The notes beneath the pieces were generated by a model. That model saw only the letters and a list, made by a program, of their open reading frames with translations. It was not told the origin of the DNA and searched no databases. The translations under genes and the position numbers were made by a program. 41,733 nucleotides of DNA from a virus: positions 1-41,733 of IMG/VR virus record IMGVR_UViG_3300046011_008865. One strand, 5' to 3'. Position 1 is the first letter of the stretch. Each line of letters starts with the position of its first letter. Shown here piece by piece: positions 3,211-16,639 of the stretch.

Positions 3211-3825
3211 TTATCTTAAATTTGGTTTTTGTTGATTTTTCTCTTGGGCAAAATTATAAATTGCTTGTTGAGTTTGGGATGGAATAAACTTTGAAAGAAT
3301 AACAATTGCTTCACCATTTGGTAATCTAATATCGCGATACACCGTTCCAAAATTTTTTGCAAAACTATCTGCCATTCTACCATAAAGTTTCATTCGTGAC
3401 GAAATATTATCAATTGCAACAAATAGAATAGCATCTATATCGTACTGAATTAATTTTTCAGATAAAGCATTCTGAATTGTTCCAATAACTTGATTTTTAT
3501 GATTTGTCGACGTAAGTTGAGTTGTAGGTTTTCCATCAATGATTACTTCAAAACTTGCGTTAACACAATCATATTGTTTTTTGTCAAACTCATAAGAAAA
3601 AGGTTCAAATTTTATCAAGTAATCATATTCAGGACTTGAGAATTTTCCTAATAAACCATTCTCATCAGAATGAACCCACTCAATTGGAAAAGGTGCTTCA
3701 TTCAATTGCCAACTGGTAAATATAGGAGGATAAACGTAATTTTCTTTTAGACCTTCATAATGTCTAGTAAGTCCAAATCGTGAAACGTCTTGAAGTTCTA
3801 TTGGACGAACATCTCTAAGTTTCAT
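3211..3825 (-). CDS. Hypothetical protein between nrdA and nrdB
   Basis: A 204-residue soluble protein that I do not recognise. It begins MKLRDVRPIELQDV, is rich in aromatic residues in its first half (YVYPPIF, YDYLIKFEPF), and has a predicted alpha/beta second half ending in a polar Gln/Lys tail. Its ATG overlaps the nrdA C-part stop as ATGA, so it is probably translationally coupled to that gene, and nrdB follows 8 bases after its stop. The position suggests co-expression with ribonucleotide reductase, but T4 has no obvious counterpart there and I see no catalytic motif. Confidence 0.7.
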   Translation of the reverse strand: MKLRDVRPIELQDVSRFGLTRHYEGLKENYVYPPIFTSWQLNEAPFPIEWVHSDENGLLGKFSSPEYDYLIKFEPFSYEFDKKQYDCVNASFEVIIDGKPTTQLTSTNHKNQVIGTIQNALSEKLIQYDIDAILFVAIDNISSRMKLYGRMADSFAKNFGTVYRDIRLPNGEAIVILSKFIPSQTQQAIYNFAQEKNQQKPNLR

Positions 3826-4847
3826 ATTTTACAAGCCCCACCAGCACATCCATCGTCTTCTATATCATCACTTGCACCATCATTGACTTGGTTATAGTAT
3901 AGAGTTTTGATACCTTGCTTATAGGCAAATATCAAATCTTCTATTAGTCGAGACATTTTGATTTCGCCCCTAGACGGGTCATACGAAGTATTAGCACTAA
4001 TTGCCTGGTCAACATACTTTTGGAATACTCCAACAGTTTTCAAATAATCTCTACATTGAACATTCCAAAGAGTTTCATATGCATGATTGAGCTTGGTAAA
4101 TTCAGGAACAACTTGTGGTGGAACTCCATCTTTAGAACCTTTGATTGTGATCAAGTTTCGTGGTGGTTCAATTCCGTTAGTTTCATTTGCTAATTGAGAT
4201 GAAGTTTCTGATGGCATAAGAGCCATCAATGTTGCATTACGAATGCCATAAGTTTTTGCATCAACTCTAAGTTTTTCCCAATCTTTAGTTGGTTCATTGA
4301 CTGGAATTTTGCACATATCGCGTGGGAAGATACCGTCATGGTATTTAGTTCTTGCTTCAATCGGTCCGAATTCTTTTGCAAGTTCTATTGAAGCTTCCGT
4401 TAGATAGTAAGCTTGTTTTTCCATCAAAGTTTCAGTATTCAGTAATGCTTCATCAGAACCCCAAGTCAAACGTCCTTTAGCTAACCAATGAGCATAACCT
4501 ATGATGCCAATTCCAAGCGGGCGATAAAGTTTGGTTGCTCGTTCTGCTGCATCGATTGGATAGTTTTGATAATCAAGCAATGCATCAAGTGCTCTAACTA
4601 GAATATGACAAGAATCTCGTAAAATCTTTTCTTGAGCTTCAGTAAGAACTTTAGAATACTTGCCCCAGTTATTTGCAGCTAAAGTGCAAAGAGAAAGTAG
4701 AGAATCGATATATCCGAGAGGTTTAGATGGAAGTGCAATTTCTACACAATTATGAATAAGAATTTGATTAGCATAAAAATTATTATTGTCTTCAACTGTT
4801 ATATCATAAACTGGGATTTCTTCTTCAAGATATTCAATTTGTATCAT
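3822..4847 (-). CDS. nrdA: Ribonucleotide reductase large subunit, C-terminal half preceded by a split C-intein
   Basis: This 341-residue ORF begins with a 33-residue C-intein ending ILIHN, followed by C-extein CVEIALPSKPLGY. The first extein Cys corresponds to E. coli NrdA C439, the thiyl-radical cysteine, and CVE supplies the E441 equivalent. Further on, LCTLAANNW holds the C462 equivalent, and the C-terminus GCAGGACKI carries the redox-shuttle cysteine pair. The C-extein is 308 residues; joined to the 438-residue N-extein it makes 746, a normal NrdA length. The ATG overlaps the GIY-YIG stop as ATGA and has AGGA 9 bases upstream, so translation is probably coupled to the endonuclease gene. 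It is inactive unless trans-spliced (inference from the family). Confidence 0.95.
   Translation of the reverse strand: MIQIEYLEEEIPVYDITVEDNNNFYANQILIHNCVEIALPSKPLGYIDSLLSLCTLAANNWGKYSKVLTEAQEKILRDSCHILVRALDALLDYQNYPIDAAERATKLYRPLGIGIIGYAHWLAKGRLTWGSDEALLNTETLMEKQAYYLTEASIELAKEFGPIEARTKYHDGIFPRDMCKIPVNEPTKDWEKLRVDAKTYGIRNATLMALMPSETSSQLANETNGIEPPRNLITIKGSKDGVPPQVVPEFTKLNHAYETLWNVQCRDYLKTVGVFQKYVDQAISANTSYDPSRGEIKMSRLIEDLIFAYKQGIKTLYYNQVNDGASDDIEDDGCAGGACKI
4749..4847 (-). other. C-intein of the split NrdA intein
   Basis: This is a 33-residue C-intein. VYDITVEDNNNFYA matches intein block F and ILIHN followed by Cys matches block G: penultimate His, terminal Asn, +1 Cys. The extein begins with the TGT at 4748-4746. 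The partner N-intein is 0.8 kb upstream at 5948-5637, separated by its own stop codon and a GIY-YIG gene, so splicing must occur in trans. Confidence 0.93.
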
Positions 4848-5572
4848 TTTTGTTTTTCCTTTTTTACTTTTGTCATTGTGTTGGTATCAAAATCTTCTAG
4901 ATTGATAGTTCGTTTTTGGCCAGTTTCATTTATGATTACTTTTATTTTTCCAGTATTTGCATCTCGTAATTTTTGTTTCTGAATATCGTCTCTAAAAAAA
5001 CCATTATATTTCAATCCGGTGATACTTTCTACTTCTCGTGCTAAGTTTCTATATTTTCCACCAAATCTAAAAGAAGTAAAATGTTTGGGTATATGTTGCC
5101 CTTTAGATTTTGCAAATGCTGATAATCGCGTATGTCCTGGAATATAACCTTTTTCAAGAGTAAGCTCTAATAACAGCTGAATCATTTGCTCATTAGTAGT
5201 TTCACCTGCATTTGTATTATTCAATCCTTGAGATGCTACTTTTAGTTTTTCCAACCATGATTCTTTATCTGTTACTATCCAACCTCCACATCCACCTGGT
5301 TTAGCATTATATCCTGCTTTACCTATTAGATTTTCTTCAAGAATAATTTTAGCTTCAACTTCTCGAATTTTAGCCATATCATCATTTTCATAAACTACTT
5401 CCCTTTTCCAAGGGTCGGGTCCATACTTTCTAATTGCTGCATGAAATCGAAATTTGCTTCCGCTTCGCGCAGCGGATAAATGTCTATTCCATCTATGTTC
5501 TAAATCATAGATGGTTTGACCTACATAAGCTTTTCCATTGATAGTATTAGTTACTTTATACACAATTGCCAT
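4844..5572 (-). CDS. Free-standing GIY-YIG homing endonuclease between the nrdA halves
   Basis: This is a 242-residue protein. The N-terminal GIY-YIG nuclease domain is visible as IVYKVTNTINGKAYVGQT (VYK...YVG variant), an HRWNRHL arginine, a glutamate in the EAKIILEE helix and GYNAKPGG. A Lys/Arg-rich C-terminal half (residues about 105-242) should bind DNA. Such enzymes cut intein- or intron-free alleles near their own insertion site and spread the element. Its stop overlaps the nrdA C-part start (ATGA). The ATG sits in a 10-bp hairpin stem overlapping a late promoter. With the N-intein and C-intein on either side it forms a 'fractured gene'. Confidence 0.93.
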   Translation of the reverse strand: MAIVYKVTNTINGKAYVGQTIYDLEHRWNRHLSAARSGSKFRFHAAIRKYGPDPWKREVVYENDDMAKIREVEAKIILEENLIGKAGYNAKPGGCGGWIVTDKESWLEKLKVASQGLNNTNAGETTNEQMIQLLLELTLEKGYIPGHTRLSAFAKSKGQHIPKHFTSFRFGGKYRNLAREVESITGLKYNGFFRDDIQKQKLRDANTGKIKVIINETGQKRTINLEDFDTNTMTKVKKEKQK

Positions 5573-5621
5573 TTTTATAATTCCATAAGTAATATGATTT
5601 CAGTATTATTTATGGCAATTG
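5563..5621 (-). promoter_or_regulatory. Hairpin masking the GIY-YIG start codon, with embedded late promoter CATAAATA
   Basis: Bases 5612-5621 and 5563-5572 form a perfect 10-bp inverted repeat (CAATTGCCAT/ATGGCAATTG on the minus strand). The 3' arm contains the ATG of the GIY-YIG gene. A T4-late-like box CATAAATA (5614-5607) overlaps the end of the 5' arm, so RNA started there (about 5601) lacks that arm and leaves the ATG free. Read-through RNA from nrdA would be masked. T4 I-TevI uses this logic; here it is inferred from sequence only. Confidence 0.65.
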
Positions 5622-5633
5622 AGATTATATTAC

Positions 5634-7262
5634 CTACTCTATAACCAATTCATCATCCGGTAAAAGATTTTTAGCCTCAACATATCCACGATTTTTAGTA
5701 TAAACTTGGTGTTCTGGGGTGCATACTAATGATTTTCCAGTTTCAGTATCTGTCAAACGAAGAACTTTAGCTTTAGGACTTGTTTGCGCAAAAGCCTGTA
5801 TGGTTTTGAATTCGCTAATACCTTTCTTATTATTACGAGACCAAACTTTCAATGGCTCATTACCAAAAGTTGATAATTGGTCAATTCTAATATCTTCAAT
5901 TGAACCATCAGCCCGTTGAATAGTAATTGTAGTATCACCTGATACACATAAGTTTGTCATTACTATTGGTTCATAAAACGGTGTATGACTATTGACATTG
6001 TCTGCATTGAAGATATAGATGCGGGAAGTTTCAAATCTTTCATTCATTACTTTAGCAAAGTATTCATCAGCAGGAATACTTATCTTGTTCACTTTATTTG
6101 ACTGTTCATATTTTGTGTACAGAGCTTCAAAGTGAACAGTGTCTGAACTATAGAATGCATCATATAAATCAGGCACTTCATCAGGTGAAAATAAAGTAAT
6201 GTTTCCGCCAGTAACCAATCGTTTATACATTGTACCATGCAATCCAATTGCATAATCCATTGTACGAACACGAGTTTCTTCAGTACCTTTATTGTTTTTG
6301 AGTTCTATTAGACGTTCGAACTCTAAGTGCCATCCTGGATAGTTTGCAGTTCCTGATGCTCCACGAACTGCACCTTGAGAACAACATTTCAAATCAGCAT
6401 TTAGCTTTTTCAAAAATGGAATAACACCTGTTGTAATTGCATCACCGTTTCTAACAGGTTGTCCTTCAGCTCGTAATCGACCAATGTTCAATCCAATACC
6501 AGCTTTTTGAGATGCATAATCTACAATAGCATTACCTGTTGCTTTGATAGAATGTAAGCTATCTCCACAATCAATGATAGTACAAGAAGAGAACTGTTTG
6601 ACATTAGTTCTTAAACCTGCCATGATTGGAGTTGGCAATGAAAAGTAATGTTGGGAAGCTAAATCATAAAACTTTTCAATATACTTCAATCGTGTTTCTT
6701 TTGGATACTTGCCAAATAGAATAGCCGGAACAAGAATATATGGAAACTGAAAAGATTCATATATTTGTTTTGTTTTTCTATTTTGAACAAGATATTTCTT
6801 TCTCATTTGTTCAGCACCGGCATATCTGAACAAATCATCTCTATCATGGTCAATAAAGCTATTCAAAATATCAAATTCTTCAGGAGTATAGAGGTCTAAT
6901 AGTTCTGACGTATAAACTCCAGCAGCTACATTCTTTTTGACTACTTCATATAAATGAGGTGGATTATTAGAACCAAAAGCTTCTTTGCGAACTGCTAACC
7001 AAACTAATCGTGCTGCTACATGGTCGTAATTCGGCGTATCTTCAGAAATCAAATCAGCCGAAGCTTTGATAATCATTTCATGAATTGCTTTCGTTTTGAT
7101 TTTAGAGAAAAAGTGTGGGTTTGCTGTCATCTCTATTTGTGAAACTGAAACCCCTTTTACTGGCGGGAACCCATTGTCCCCATGCACTGCCCATTCAATA
7201 ACTGCATGCAACTTTGATAAATCTAGTGGTTCAGTGTGTCCATTTCTTTTAGTGACTAACAT
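5634..7262 (-). CDS. nrdA: Ribonucleotide reductase large subunit, N-terminal half fused to a split N-intein
   Basis: This 542-residue ORF has an N-terminal ATP-cone (about residues 1-90, allosteric control) and the first part of the catalytic barrel. C227 in QFSSCTIIDC corresponds to E. coli C225, one of the redox cysteines. The extein stops at ...VMTNL (residue 438); the next 104 residues are an N-intein, then a TAA. The downstream half carries the matching C-intein. Splicing would restore NL-CVE around the radical cysteine, which becomes residue 439, as in E. coli. The start is the ATG at 7262. It is not a pseudogene: both halves are intact and both intein parts keep their key residues. 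Confidence 0.95.
   Translation of the reverse strand: MLVTKRNGHTEPLDLSKLHAVIEWAVHGDNGFPPVKGVSVSQIEMTANPHFFSKIKTKAIHEMIIKASADLISEDTPNYDHVAARLVWLAVRKEAFGSNNPPHLYEVVKKNVAAGVYTSELLDLYTPEEFDILNSFIDHDRDDLFRYAGAEQMRKKYLVQNRKTKQIYESFQFPYILVPAILFGKYPKETRLKYIEKFYDLASQHYFSLPTPIMAGLRTNVKQFSSCTIIDCGDSLHSIKATGNAIVDYASQKAGIGLNIGRLRAEGQPVRNGDAITTGVIPFLKKLNADLKCCSQGAVRGASGTANYPGWHLEFERLIELKNNKGTEETRVRTMDYAIGLHGTMYKRLVTGGNITLFSPDEVPDLYDAFYSSDTVHFEALYTKYEQSNKVNKISIPADEYFAKVMNERFETSRIYIFNADNVNSHTPFYEPIVMTNLCVSGDTTITIQRADGSIEDIRIDQLSTFGNEPLKVWSRNNKKGISEFKTIQAFAQTSPKAKVLRLTDTETGKSLVCTPEHQVYTKNRGYVEAKNLLPDDELVIE
5637..5948 (-). other. N-intein of the split NrdA intein
   Basis: This is a 104-residue N-intein. It starts with the nucleophile Cys in CVSGDTTITI (block A) and has the block B signature CTPEHQVYT (TxxH) followed by GYVEAKNLLPDDE. 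It ends at a stop codon, with no endonuclease domain inside the chain. Block B and the tail closely resemble the UvsW N-intein (HEFYTKTRGKVKAKDL), so the two are probably related. Confidence 0.93.
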
Positions 7263-8443: not shown

Positions 8444-9298
8444 TTATGATATTTTGATTTTGATTGAGTTAGTTATCGGATATTGAGATTCTTTATACCA
8501 TTTTACACGCTCGCGTGCATGCGCTTTAGACCACTTAAGGTCGGCAAAAATATCAATTACTTTTACCATTTTCTTATCTGATGCCAAACGAGTTCCACGA
8601 CCAACAGATTGAATTGCTTTGATATACGACTTCCCTGCATCTACGAAAATCAAACACTTAACTCGGTCAATACTAATGCCAGTTGAAGCAATACCGGATG
8701 TTGCAACAACAATCATATCATCCTGAGTTTCAAACAAATCGTATTGAGCTTTTCTTTCTTTCTTTTTAGAAGCACCATATAAGAAGACTGCATTACCGCT
8801 AATTGCTTGTGTTAAGTTTTCTCCAAACGGAACAGAATTGACAAGAACTAAAGTATTACCGATTTGCTCTGCATATTGGATAATCAAGCCAGCAATAACT
8901 TCTATTCGTTCTTCATTCTTAGAAAGATAGTTCTTTTCAGCTGCATAGTCAGGGAACTGTTCTTTACTTGATTGTTTCAAACAGACTTGTTCAATATCTA
9001 CTTCAGCAAGATAGCCATTATCAATCAACCAACGTGCAGGGATTTCAATAAGAGTATCTCCTATTGAAGCACGAAGAGACATTTGGTCAGCGGGAGGTTT
9101 TGGGAATGTGCCTGTTACACCAAACTTGAATGGTATATGAGCACCATGTTCGTTCAGTAACTTTTGAGCTACATGAGCTTTAGCACCATGGCAATTTGCA
9201 ACTACAGCTCCATGTACAATATAATTATGATTATTTTTAACATGTAAATTATAAACTATTTCCGGTTTGTCTATTTCTATCTTTGATAGTAGTTTCAT
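8444..9298 (-). CDS. uvsW: UvsW-type helicase, C-terminal half preceded by a split C-intein
   Basis: This 284-residue ORF starts with a 35-residue C-intein ending VVAN, then the C-extein CHGAKAHVAQK, i.e. the second half of the DExH box. The rest is the second RecA-like lobe: GVTGTFPK (motif III region), VATSGIASTGIS (motif V) and QSVGRGTR (motif VI). UvsW unwinds branched recombination intermediates and R-loops and helps convert origin to recombination-dependent replication. Joined to the N-half it gives 478 residues, close to T4 UvsW. The ATG at 9298 lies 50 bases inside the endonuclease gene, in another frame, and has no visible ribosome site. Confidence 0.92.
   Translation of the reverse strand: MKLLSKIEIDKPEIVYNLHVKNNHNYIVHGAVVANCHGAKAHVAQKLLNEHGAHIPFKFGVTGTFPKPPADQMSLRASIGDTLIEIPARWLIDNGYLAEVDIEQVCLKQSSKEQFPDYAAEKNYLSKNEERIEVIAGLIIQYAEQIGNTLVLVNSVPFGENLTQAISGNAVFLYGASKKKERKAQYDLFETQDDMIVVATSGIASTGISIDRVKCLIFVDAGKSYIKAIQSVGRGTRLASDKKMVKVIDIFADLKWSKAHARERVKWYKESQYPITNSIKIKIS
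9194..9298 (-). other. C-intein of the split UvsW intein, non-canonical penultimate residue
   Basis: This is a 35-residue C-intein. Block F is visible as IVYNLHVKNNHNYIVHG and block G as VVAN before Cys (TGC at 9193-9191). The penultimate residue is Ala instead of the usual His; the terminal Asn and +1 Cys are kept. Its first 50 bases also encode the C-terminus of the homing endonuclease in another frame. Confidence 0.9.
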
Positions 9299-10226
9299 AA
9301 AATTTTTTTATTTTTAATAAAGTAACATTATCAATTTCATTATGAGGCAAATCGTCATATGAAATTAAATTTATTAATTCATGTTCAGTTATAATTTCAA
9401 ATTTATAATTATTGTCTTTTGCCCATTTTATACCTTCATTTATTTTAAAATTATCCTTTTTTATATTTTTGGAAGGTTTGATTTCAAAAATAGTTAAAGT
9501 GTCTTTATTGAAAAAATCAGTAATATAAATTTTTAATTTACCGGTTTCAGAAATATAAGGTATTCTTATTTTTTCATATTCATATCCAGTAGCCGCATAA
9601 AAAATAACTTCCCAGGAAGACCTAAACTTTATATTTCTGAATTCTATATTTTTCCTAGTTCTACTATTATGCGGATTTGGAGTCCATTCTCCATTCTGGA
9701 TTTTTTGTTTCATTTCATATGATTTTGCCTTTTTCCATTCATCAGAATGGGTCCTTCCATACATAGGATTTTTTTCGCTAAGTCTTTCGTTAGAAATTTT
9801 TTCTAAACGGATATCAGTTTCTTTTGATAAACCTTTATTCCATGGAACAACATCAGATGATTTGCCTTTATTCCAAGGAATTTCTCCTTTTTTGTCGAAA
9901 CATCTATTTGAACTTTTGGCTGTAGCATTTCCTCCAATTTTTGCAATCAAATGTTTTCGCAATTTTTCAGCTTCAATTCTGAGCATTTCATCTTTACTTA
10001 AATACTGTTGAATAATTAATTCTGGATATAACAAAAATAATTTTGTTTTAAATTTTGTAAATAACTTTAAATTTAATTTAATTCCATTTGAAAATAATGC
10101 TACATCAAAAAATTTTCGACCACTTCCAATTCTGTTTTTGTACAATAAATCAATTAAAATTACATCGCAATTTAGCTCTTTCAGCTTTAAATTAATTTTT
10201 TCAATTATTTTGTTTTTATATGACAT
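9249..10226 (-). CDS. Free-standing PD-(D/E)XK homing endonuclease with NUMOD3-like repeats, between the uvsW halves
   Basis: A 325-residue protein. The middle has repeated IPWNKGKS / VPWNKGLS motifs and NPMYGRTHSDEWKKAKS, typical of NUMOD3-type DNA-binding modules of homing enzymes. Then comes a nuclease core of the RSxWE...DF...ExK type: R202-SSW-E206, D237 (YITDFF), E248-I-K250. It should cut intein-free uvsW alleles. The gene is strikingly AT-rich compared with its neighbours, suggesting a separate origin. Its last 16 codons overlap the UvsW C-intein. TATAAATA, a perfect late promoter, lies 29 bases before the ATG, overlapping the N-intein stop codon. Confidence 0.87.
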   Translation of the reverse strand: MSYKNKIIEKINLKLKELNCDVILIDLLYKNRIGSGRKFFDVALFSNGIKLNLKLFTKFKTKLFLLYPELIIQQYLSKDEMLRIEAEKLRKHLIAKIGGNATAKSSNRCFDKKGEIPWNKGKSSDVVPWNKGLSKETDIRLEKISNERLSEKNPMYGRTHSDEWKKAKSYEMKQKIQNGEWTPNPHNSRTRKNIEFRNIKFRSSWEVIFYAATGYEYEKIRIPYISETGKLKIYITDFFNKDTLTIFEIKPSKNIKKDNFKINEGIKWAKDNNYKFEIITEHELINLISYDDLPHNEIDNVTLLKIKKFYETTIKDRNRQTGNSL

Positions 10227-10254
10227 TAGTTTTGCTTCAATGAAACTCAGAAAG

Positions 10255-10262
10255 TATTTATA
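10255..10262 (-). promoter_or_regulatory. T4-type late promoter TATAAATA for the uvsW homing endonuclease
   Basis: A perfect TATAAATA on the minus strand, overlapping the N-intein TAA. Its start site would be near 10249, in front of the endonuclease ATG (10226). An upstream ATGAAA (10280-10275) can pair with TTTCAT (10245-10240), weakly suggesting a read-through hairpin like the one at the GIY-YIG gene. Confidence 0.6.
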
Positions 10263-15844: not shown

Positions 15845-16639
15845 ATGCGATTCAAAGAATTCCTAATCCTAACAGAAGATTTGATGAACTTACTAGCAGA
15901 AGCAATAAGTCCTGAAGTCAGACGTAACCGTAAAAAGATGATAGAGTATTACTTGAAGCTTGACAACTATTCATATTGGAATGGAGGTCATGCAATGGAA
16001 GTTGCTAAGTTAGCAAGGGATTTTGGAAAGTATTTAGGATTAGATGCAAATAAGCTAGCTTATTCTGCATTGACACATGACTCAGGTAAAGTGCATGTTG
16101 ATAAACGAGTATTGCACAAACCTGACTTATTGGAACCTGATGAAAGAAAGCATATCAGCTCTCACGTTTCAGATGAAGAACATATCAAACATCTTAAGCA
16201 TTTGACCGGAGAGCATGGAGTATTTGCTAGACTTGCATTGATGTATCATCATACTCGTCCTGATGAAATAGACAAGAAAGTTCAAGCTGGAGAACTTGGT
16301 GATGATGAAGCAGAAATTGTAAAGATTATTACAATATGTGATGTATTTGAAGCATTAGTATCTGAAAAGAGACCATACAAAAAACCTATTACTAAGTATG
16401 ATGCTCTTTCGTTAATGGAGACATTGGCAGTAATTGACAAAGAAACTTTTGCTAAATTTGTTAAGTGGCAATATCAAGAATTTGCTAACGAATATAGAAA
16501 AGATTATGTTGAAAAGAATAGAGCTAGATTAGAACAAGAGTATGAAGTCAATAAAGAAGTATATGCTAAGAAATATGCAGAATACTTAGCGACATCTAAA
16601 GCTAATCCGAGAAAGTTCAATCCGCAACAAGAAGATTAA
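15845..16639 (+). CDS. HD-GYP-like phosphodiesterase with capsid-targeting-like N-terminus
   Basis: A 264-residue protein. Residues 45-170 follow the HD-GYP plan: GGHAMEVAKLA (H49), THDSGKVHVDKRVLHKPDLL (H78-D79, K82), H107, YHHTRPDE (H135-H136), and IITICDVFEALVSEKRPY (D166). The GYP triplet itself is lost. HD-GYP enzymes hydrolyse cyclic dinucleotides (c-di-GMP; some cleave 3'3'-cGAMP). The first 20 residues (MRFKEFLILTE-D, LLAE-A) look like a T4 capsid-targeting sequence with LxE prohead-protease sites. With its late promoter this suggests a packaged, injected effector (inference). The C-terminal 70 residues are a charged helix. No clear ribosome site precedes the ATG. Its end overlaps the opposing gene by 4 bases. 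Confidence 0.8.
   Translation: MRFKEFLILTEDLMNLLAEAISPEVRRNRKKMIEYYLKLDNYSYWNGGHAMEVAKLARDFGKYLGLDANKLAYSALTHDSGKVHVDKRVLHKPDLLEPDERKHISSHVSDEEHIKHLKHLTGEHGVFARLALMYHHTRPDEIDKKVQAGELGDDEAEIVKIITICDVFEALVSEKRPYKKPITKYDALSLMETLAVIDKETFAKFVKWQYQEFANEYRKDYVEKNRARLEQEYEVNKEVYAKKYAEYLATSKANPRKFNPQQED

Follow-up and report, generated by a model that had tools for sequence, protein, structure and literature searches.

A hairpin, a late-type promoter box and a homing-site-like motif as a probable temporal switch of a split-intein homing endonuclease in phage nrdA

One of the questions raised by a homing endonuclease gene lodged between the two halves of a broken nrdA gene is how its expression would be timed. 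We addressed it in the window, which is the whole 41.7-kb (41,733-nt) fragment of a T4-like phage deposited as an IMG/VR virus record; coordinates are 1-based within the window, and all of the nrdA features lie on the minus strand. The nrdA N-half is fused to intein-N in a single open reading frame (5634..7262; Pfam ATP-cone, Ribonuc_red_lgN, Ribonuc_red_lgC 1-213 and Intein_splicing 10-93), the intein-N portion occupying about 5637-5948 and starting C-VSGDTTITI. A second frame (3822..4847) consists of intein-C (4749-4847, ending ...ANQILIHN) and the nrdA C-half, which begins CVEIALPS. The hallmarks of a split intein are all present: halves on separate ORFs, Cys1, the block-B TxxH, the C-terminal HN, a +1 Cys and an endonuclease gene between the halves. 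That gene (4844..5572, 242 amino acids) encodes a GIY-YIG catalytic domain (PF01541, E=3e-10), and the closest match of known structure, the best in the PDB, is the catalytic domain of I-TevI (1mk0, E=2.6e-4). Its stop codon and the start codon of the nrdA C-half share an ATGA overlap at 4847-4844, and the nrdA C-half has its own ribosome-binding site (RBS), AAGGA, at 4861-4857.

The spacer from the intein-N stop codon to the endonuclease ATG is 61 nt long and, with its flanks, reads TAG-gtaatataatctCAATTGCCATAAATAATACTGAAATCATATTACTTATGGAATTATAAAA-ATGGCAATTG. It takes part in a perfect inverted repeat of 10 bp, in which every pair is Watson-Crick and the loop is 39 nt. The 5' arm, CAATTGCCAT, is at 5612..5621, and the 3' arm, ATGGCAATTG, is at 5563..5572, its first three bases being the ATG of the endonuclease. 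Taken alone, the hairpin has a predicted energy of about -10.2 kcal/mol. Of 1000 dinucleotide shuffles, 6 produced a perfect stem of 10 bp or longer that overlapped the initiation region, and a separate stem score gave p=0.005 for the window stem. Because the overall fold of the 95-nt region is ordinary (z -1.05), the case for a hairpin rests on the specific 10-bp stem. The weak Shine-Dalgarno-like GGA of the endonuclease gene (5582..5584) sits in the loop, so it is the start codon rather than the RBS that is predicted to be sequestered on the read-through RNA. The predicted energy required to open the initiation region (-16 to +5) falls from 9.3 kcal/mol on the read-through RNA to 3.6 kcal/mol on the late RNA; the window stem is among the weaker ones, its gain in accessibility lying at the 95th percentile of controls.

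A late-type promoter box, CATAAATA, is located at 5607..5614. Late boxes of T4 span -13 to -6, the first of these positions being poorly conserved among T4 relatives (PMC1524935), so that a C at -13 of this box is acceptable and the predicted +1 is at 5601. The window box fits the T4 form (NATAAATA at -13 to -6), which is also that of late boxes in S-PM2 (PMC2984593). The predicted +1 falls past the entire 5' arm, inside the loop, and a late RNA starting there would lack the arm. The preliminary description had reported the ATGA overlap and an AGGA site belonging to the nrdA C-half, a perfect inverted repeat with the ATG in its 3' arm, and a start near 5601 that would remove the 5' arm, all of which agree with the features above, the last by the T4 rule for a predicted start; it had also placed a late-type box over the 5' arm, and the box is there, but "over" is too loose a word for an overlap of only 3 nt. 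The string [TC]ATAAATA occurs only five times in 41.7 kb: in the nrdA spacer, once each ahead of the gene 32 homologue and an ORF at 15845, within the helicase gene and at the exact start of the endonuclease of another split intein. No gp55 or gp33 gene was found among the few window ORFs scanned, and late transcription in this phage is assumed from its kinship with T4.

We think it likely that the 61-bp spacer is a compact temporal switch of the split-intein homing endonuclease, probably with autorepression. On read-through nrdA mRNA of early and middle infection, the 5' arm would pair with nucleotides 1-10 of the endonuclease gene, hiding its start codon, while nrdA-N and nrdA-C would each be translated from a site of their own. 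In late infection, a gp55-type polymerase would start at 5601, and the shorter transcript, free of the 5' arm, would have an open start codon. Like I-TevI, the enzyme probably acts in addition as a repressor of its own late promoter, at target-like sequences lying from +1 to +14 and just upstream. We infer the late start, the translational block and the autorepression from what the DNA itself displays, namely the stem, the box, their geometry and recurrence, and the motif.

Relatives were gathered by alignment searches with nrdA, intein-N and intein-C and from annotated phages; a search with the endonuclease as a single protein found none. About 66 distinct endonuclease starts between split-intein halves were identified in phage genes, nearly all of them in nrdA, and these form 19 endonuclease lineages at 60% protein identity, with L173 left out as it is nrdA plus intein and not an endonuclease. 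A significant stem over the initiation region is found in 16 of the 19 lineages, and an nATAAATA late box at -60 to -20 is likewise found in 16, leaving three lineages without a significant stem and three without an exact box. In all 16 box-bearing lineages the predicted +1 (13 nt on from the first base of the box, by the T4 spacing of -13 to -6; PMC1524935) comes after 62-100% of the 5' arm, 100% in 12 of them, and before the 3' arm. The arm sequences are often unrelated between lineages. AT-rich phage DNA abounds in short inverted repeats and ATAAATA strings, and a chance origin would suit both the unremarkable fold of the whole region and the window stem taken alone (p about 0.005). Chance is nevertheless extremely unlikely to account for recurrence across lineages with a fixed geometry (for the 19 lineages together, p is about 2e-19, an optimistic figure, like the other p-values, as the lineages are related elements rather than independent draws), or for the comparisons with control starts and control boxes.

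When compared with the starts of other genes on the same contigs, the box is present in 21 of 25 spacer clusters versus 31 of 365 control starts (p=6e-17), or in 20 of 24 clusters without L173, which was recognised as nrdA plus intein only later and is counted as an endonuclease in the box and stem controls, the opening energies and the motif counts. The stem scores likewise set the spacer clusters, L173 among them, apart from the 365 control starts (p=5e-12). The median opening energy of the -16 to +5 region on the read-through RNA is 13.1 kcal/mol versus 5.3 kcal/mol in controls, and on the late RNA it is 4.1 versus 4.2 kcal/mol, L173 being included in both comparisons.

The closest relatives (L002 and L003), with endonucleases 68-69% identical to that of the window, keep CAATTGCCA of the 5' arm and the block ATAAATAATACTGAAAT while the flanking bases have changed, with only 8 of the 10 pairs persisting. 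Among cultured phages, Klebsiella phage KP13-7, with a GIY-YIG enzyme, has the arms GGTAGTGTGATTTC and GAAATCACACTACC with AATAAATA between them, and Yersinia phage TG1, a member of the Tevenvirinae with an enzyme annotated as HNH, has the arms ATGATGCTCCTT and AAGGAGCATCAT, with TATAAATA closing the 5' arm and a 12-bp stem that covers AAGGAG. The arms hardly vary within the largest family, so that covariation there is modest. In KP13-7 (L082 2029-7559), nrdA is annotated in more than two pieces, with further hypothetical ORFs between them. Three elements (L098, L157 and L166) have strong stems over the endonuclease start and no exact NATAAATA, and perhaps possess a diverged late promoter; a diverged late promoter, CTAAATA, has been reported for Aeh1 (PMC1524935).

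The control module appears to travel with the endonuclease, since its box is absent from intein-less nrdA and the module is lost or decayed where the endonuclease has gone. None of 74 intein-less nrdA genes has an nATAAATA within 150 nt of the insertion site, and split inteins without an endonuclease (L092-L095, L105, L125) have neither box nor stem. In one element (L009 6609-6700) the endonuclease has acquired in-frame stops, the 17-bp stem is intact and the box has mutated to TATAACTA; in three others (L007, L138 and L139) the N-terminus of the endonuclease is deleted and the box is kept. It could be argued that the promoter serves the downstream nrdA-C and nrdB genes late in infection and that the hairpin is incidental, or is an element of processing or stability, for these genes are co-oriented and nearly overlapping and a late transcript would enter nrdA-C. 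The lack of such a box in the 74 intein-less genes, and the loss of box and stem from alleles minus the endonuclease, make this explanation very unlikely, although the three N-terminally deleted alleles do retain the box. The proposal of the preliminary description, that silencing of the I-TevI kind protects a split-intein endonuclease, thus gains comparative support from the recurrence of stem and box, their rarity at control starts and their loss with the endonuclease. A separate arrangement was seen in another nrdA gene (L010 4962-8288), which has a continuous mini-intein at the usual site; further downstream lies what looks like a second intein (HN-S junction), split in two and lacking an endonuclease gene between its halves.

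The spacer also contains sequence resembling nrdA directly downstream of the intein insertion point, the presumed homing site. The forward copy, GAAATCATATTACT, occupies 5588..5601 (p=0.005 in the non-coding spacer), beginning exactly at the predicted +1, with a gap of 5 nt to the box like that seen in relatives, and thereby overlapping the promoter. A reverse-oriented copy, which reads GAGATTATATTACCTACT on the plus strand, is at 5621..5638 (p=0.005, by a PWM of nrdA C-exteins with its own cluster left out); it spans the intein-N stop codon and is partly intein-N coding. An initial homing-site comparison took in own exteins and the flanks on either side, a scope so broad that most results were not significant; restriction to the C-extein, and then a PWM built leaving out each spacer's own cluster, gave a clear signal, and as successive versions of one test these qualify the p-values. 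Matches at p<0.05 are present in 15 of 26 non-coding spacers versus 4 of 120 control starts (L173 counted). The cleanest control is provided by late boxes themselves: the motif starts 3-10 nt past the box at 15 of 21 endonuclease boxes and at 0 of 15 control late boxes (L173 again counted), with scores from 1.5 to 20.4 at the 15 endonuclease boxes and all below -1 at the 15 control boxes. The enzymes at the 15 motif-bearing boxes are GIY-YIG, as judged by N-terminal sequence or Pfam, except for one HNH enzyme (L146). The idea that GARAT after the box is simply part of the late-promoter consensus was ruled out, as the 15 control boxes are without it.

Since I-TevI has an operator that is similar to its homing site and overlaps its late promoter (PMC2988022), the natural interpretation is autorepression, and the motif suggests an autorepressor operator, a third layer absent from the preliminary description. 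Alternatively, the spacer could carry the motif because it descends from extein DNA, which leaves unexplained why its copy stays aligned with the promoter. In the largest family, the 3' arm, GAGATTACACTTCC, is in several members identical to the nrdA C-extein just past the insertion point (codons E-I-T-L-P), and the 5' arm is its reverse complement. Such arms, and the location of the motif directly on late promoters, would be expected if the inverted repeat were a DNA operator only, a palindromic endonuclease site derived from the homing site, with RNA masking as a by-product. We regard this as unlikely, because HNH-type or unclassified elements (L083, L140 and L237) have strong stems without the motif, because the window stem (CAATTGCCAT) and the motif are different sequences, and because the stems consistently cover the start region.

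The temporal switch, with RNA masking as a function in its own right, may be one instance of a wider design. We would give an even chance to the existence of a conserved cassette of about 60 bp with three layers (a late promoter, an operator derived from the homing site and a hairpin that masks initiation), in whose commonest family one palindrome is both a DNA double operator copied from the nrdA target and an RNA silencing hairpin. From the loci compared, hairpin and late-promoter control looks like standard equipment of split-intein mobile elements. The window contains a second split intein, in uvsW, with a TnsA-like/NUMOD3 endonuclease ORF of 325 amino acids (9249-10262, minus strand). There, TATAAATA at 10262-10255 overlaps the stop codon of the N-half; the stem of the uvsW endonuclease itself is weak (8-9 bp) and not significant, and its relatives in the collection are identical copies only.

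One accepted reason for the control of I-TevI is that ribosomes disturb intron splicing. If the switch proposed here is correct, delayed expression of the endonuclease pays even where there is no group I intron that needs to fold, and if split-intein elements keep the same layers, protection of intron splicing cannot be the whole story. The module would also provide a recognisable sequence pattern by which active elements could be found and their target sites predicted, with dozens of natural variants to draw upon.

The endonucleases of genes fractured by split inteins are said to belong to a Vsr-like family, unlike the GIY-YIG enzyme of the window. Such "fractured genes", nrdA included, are already known (Dassa et al. 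2009, cited in PMC3653736), and they share the arrangement of the window, in which a split intein interrupts the gene and an endonuclease gene separates its two halves. In the literature searched, with most subscription papers outside its reach, no split-intein fractured gene was described as having a hairpin, a late promoter or an operator. The logic of hairpin and late promoter is experimentally established for I-TevI and for mobE of Aeromonas phage Aeh1, and has been implicated for T4 segB (PMC2988022, PMC3014915). T4 I-TevI, in the td intron, is like the window in having a GIY-YIG enzyme and, as is predicted for the window, a read-through hairpin that blocks translation, a late RNA without the 5' part and an operator that resembles the homing site and overlaps the late promoter (PMC2988022). 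It differs in that the host element here is a split intein in nrdA rather than a group I intron, with no RNA splicing to protect, in that the window stem would hold the start codon and not the RBS, and in that the stem of the large family is made of the operator-like copy itself. Aeh1 mobE also splits nrdA and has a late promoter and an RBS-masking hairpin (PMC2988022, PMC3014915), but it encodes an HNH enzyme and the Aeh1 nrdA pieces work without an intein, whereas the nrdA halves of the window end and begin in intein halves. The leader of T4 gene e (lysozyme) similarly has a late promoter in the 5' strand of an inhibitory hairpin over the initiation region (PMC3014915), but gene e is not a mobile element and no operator is involved. 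Each layer is therefore known from I-TevI, the first two from Aeh1 mobE, and fractured nrdA is known in itself; what appears to be new is the movement of I-TevI control logic to split inteins.
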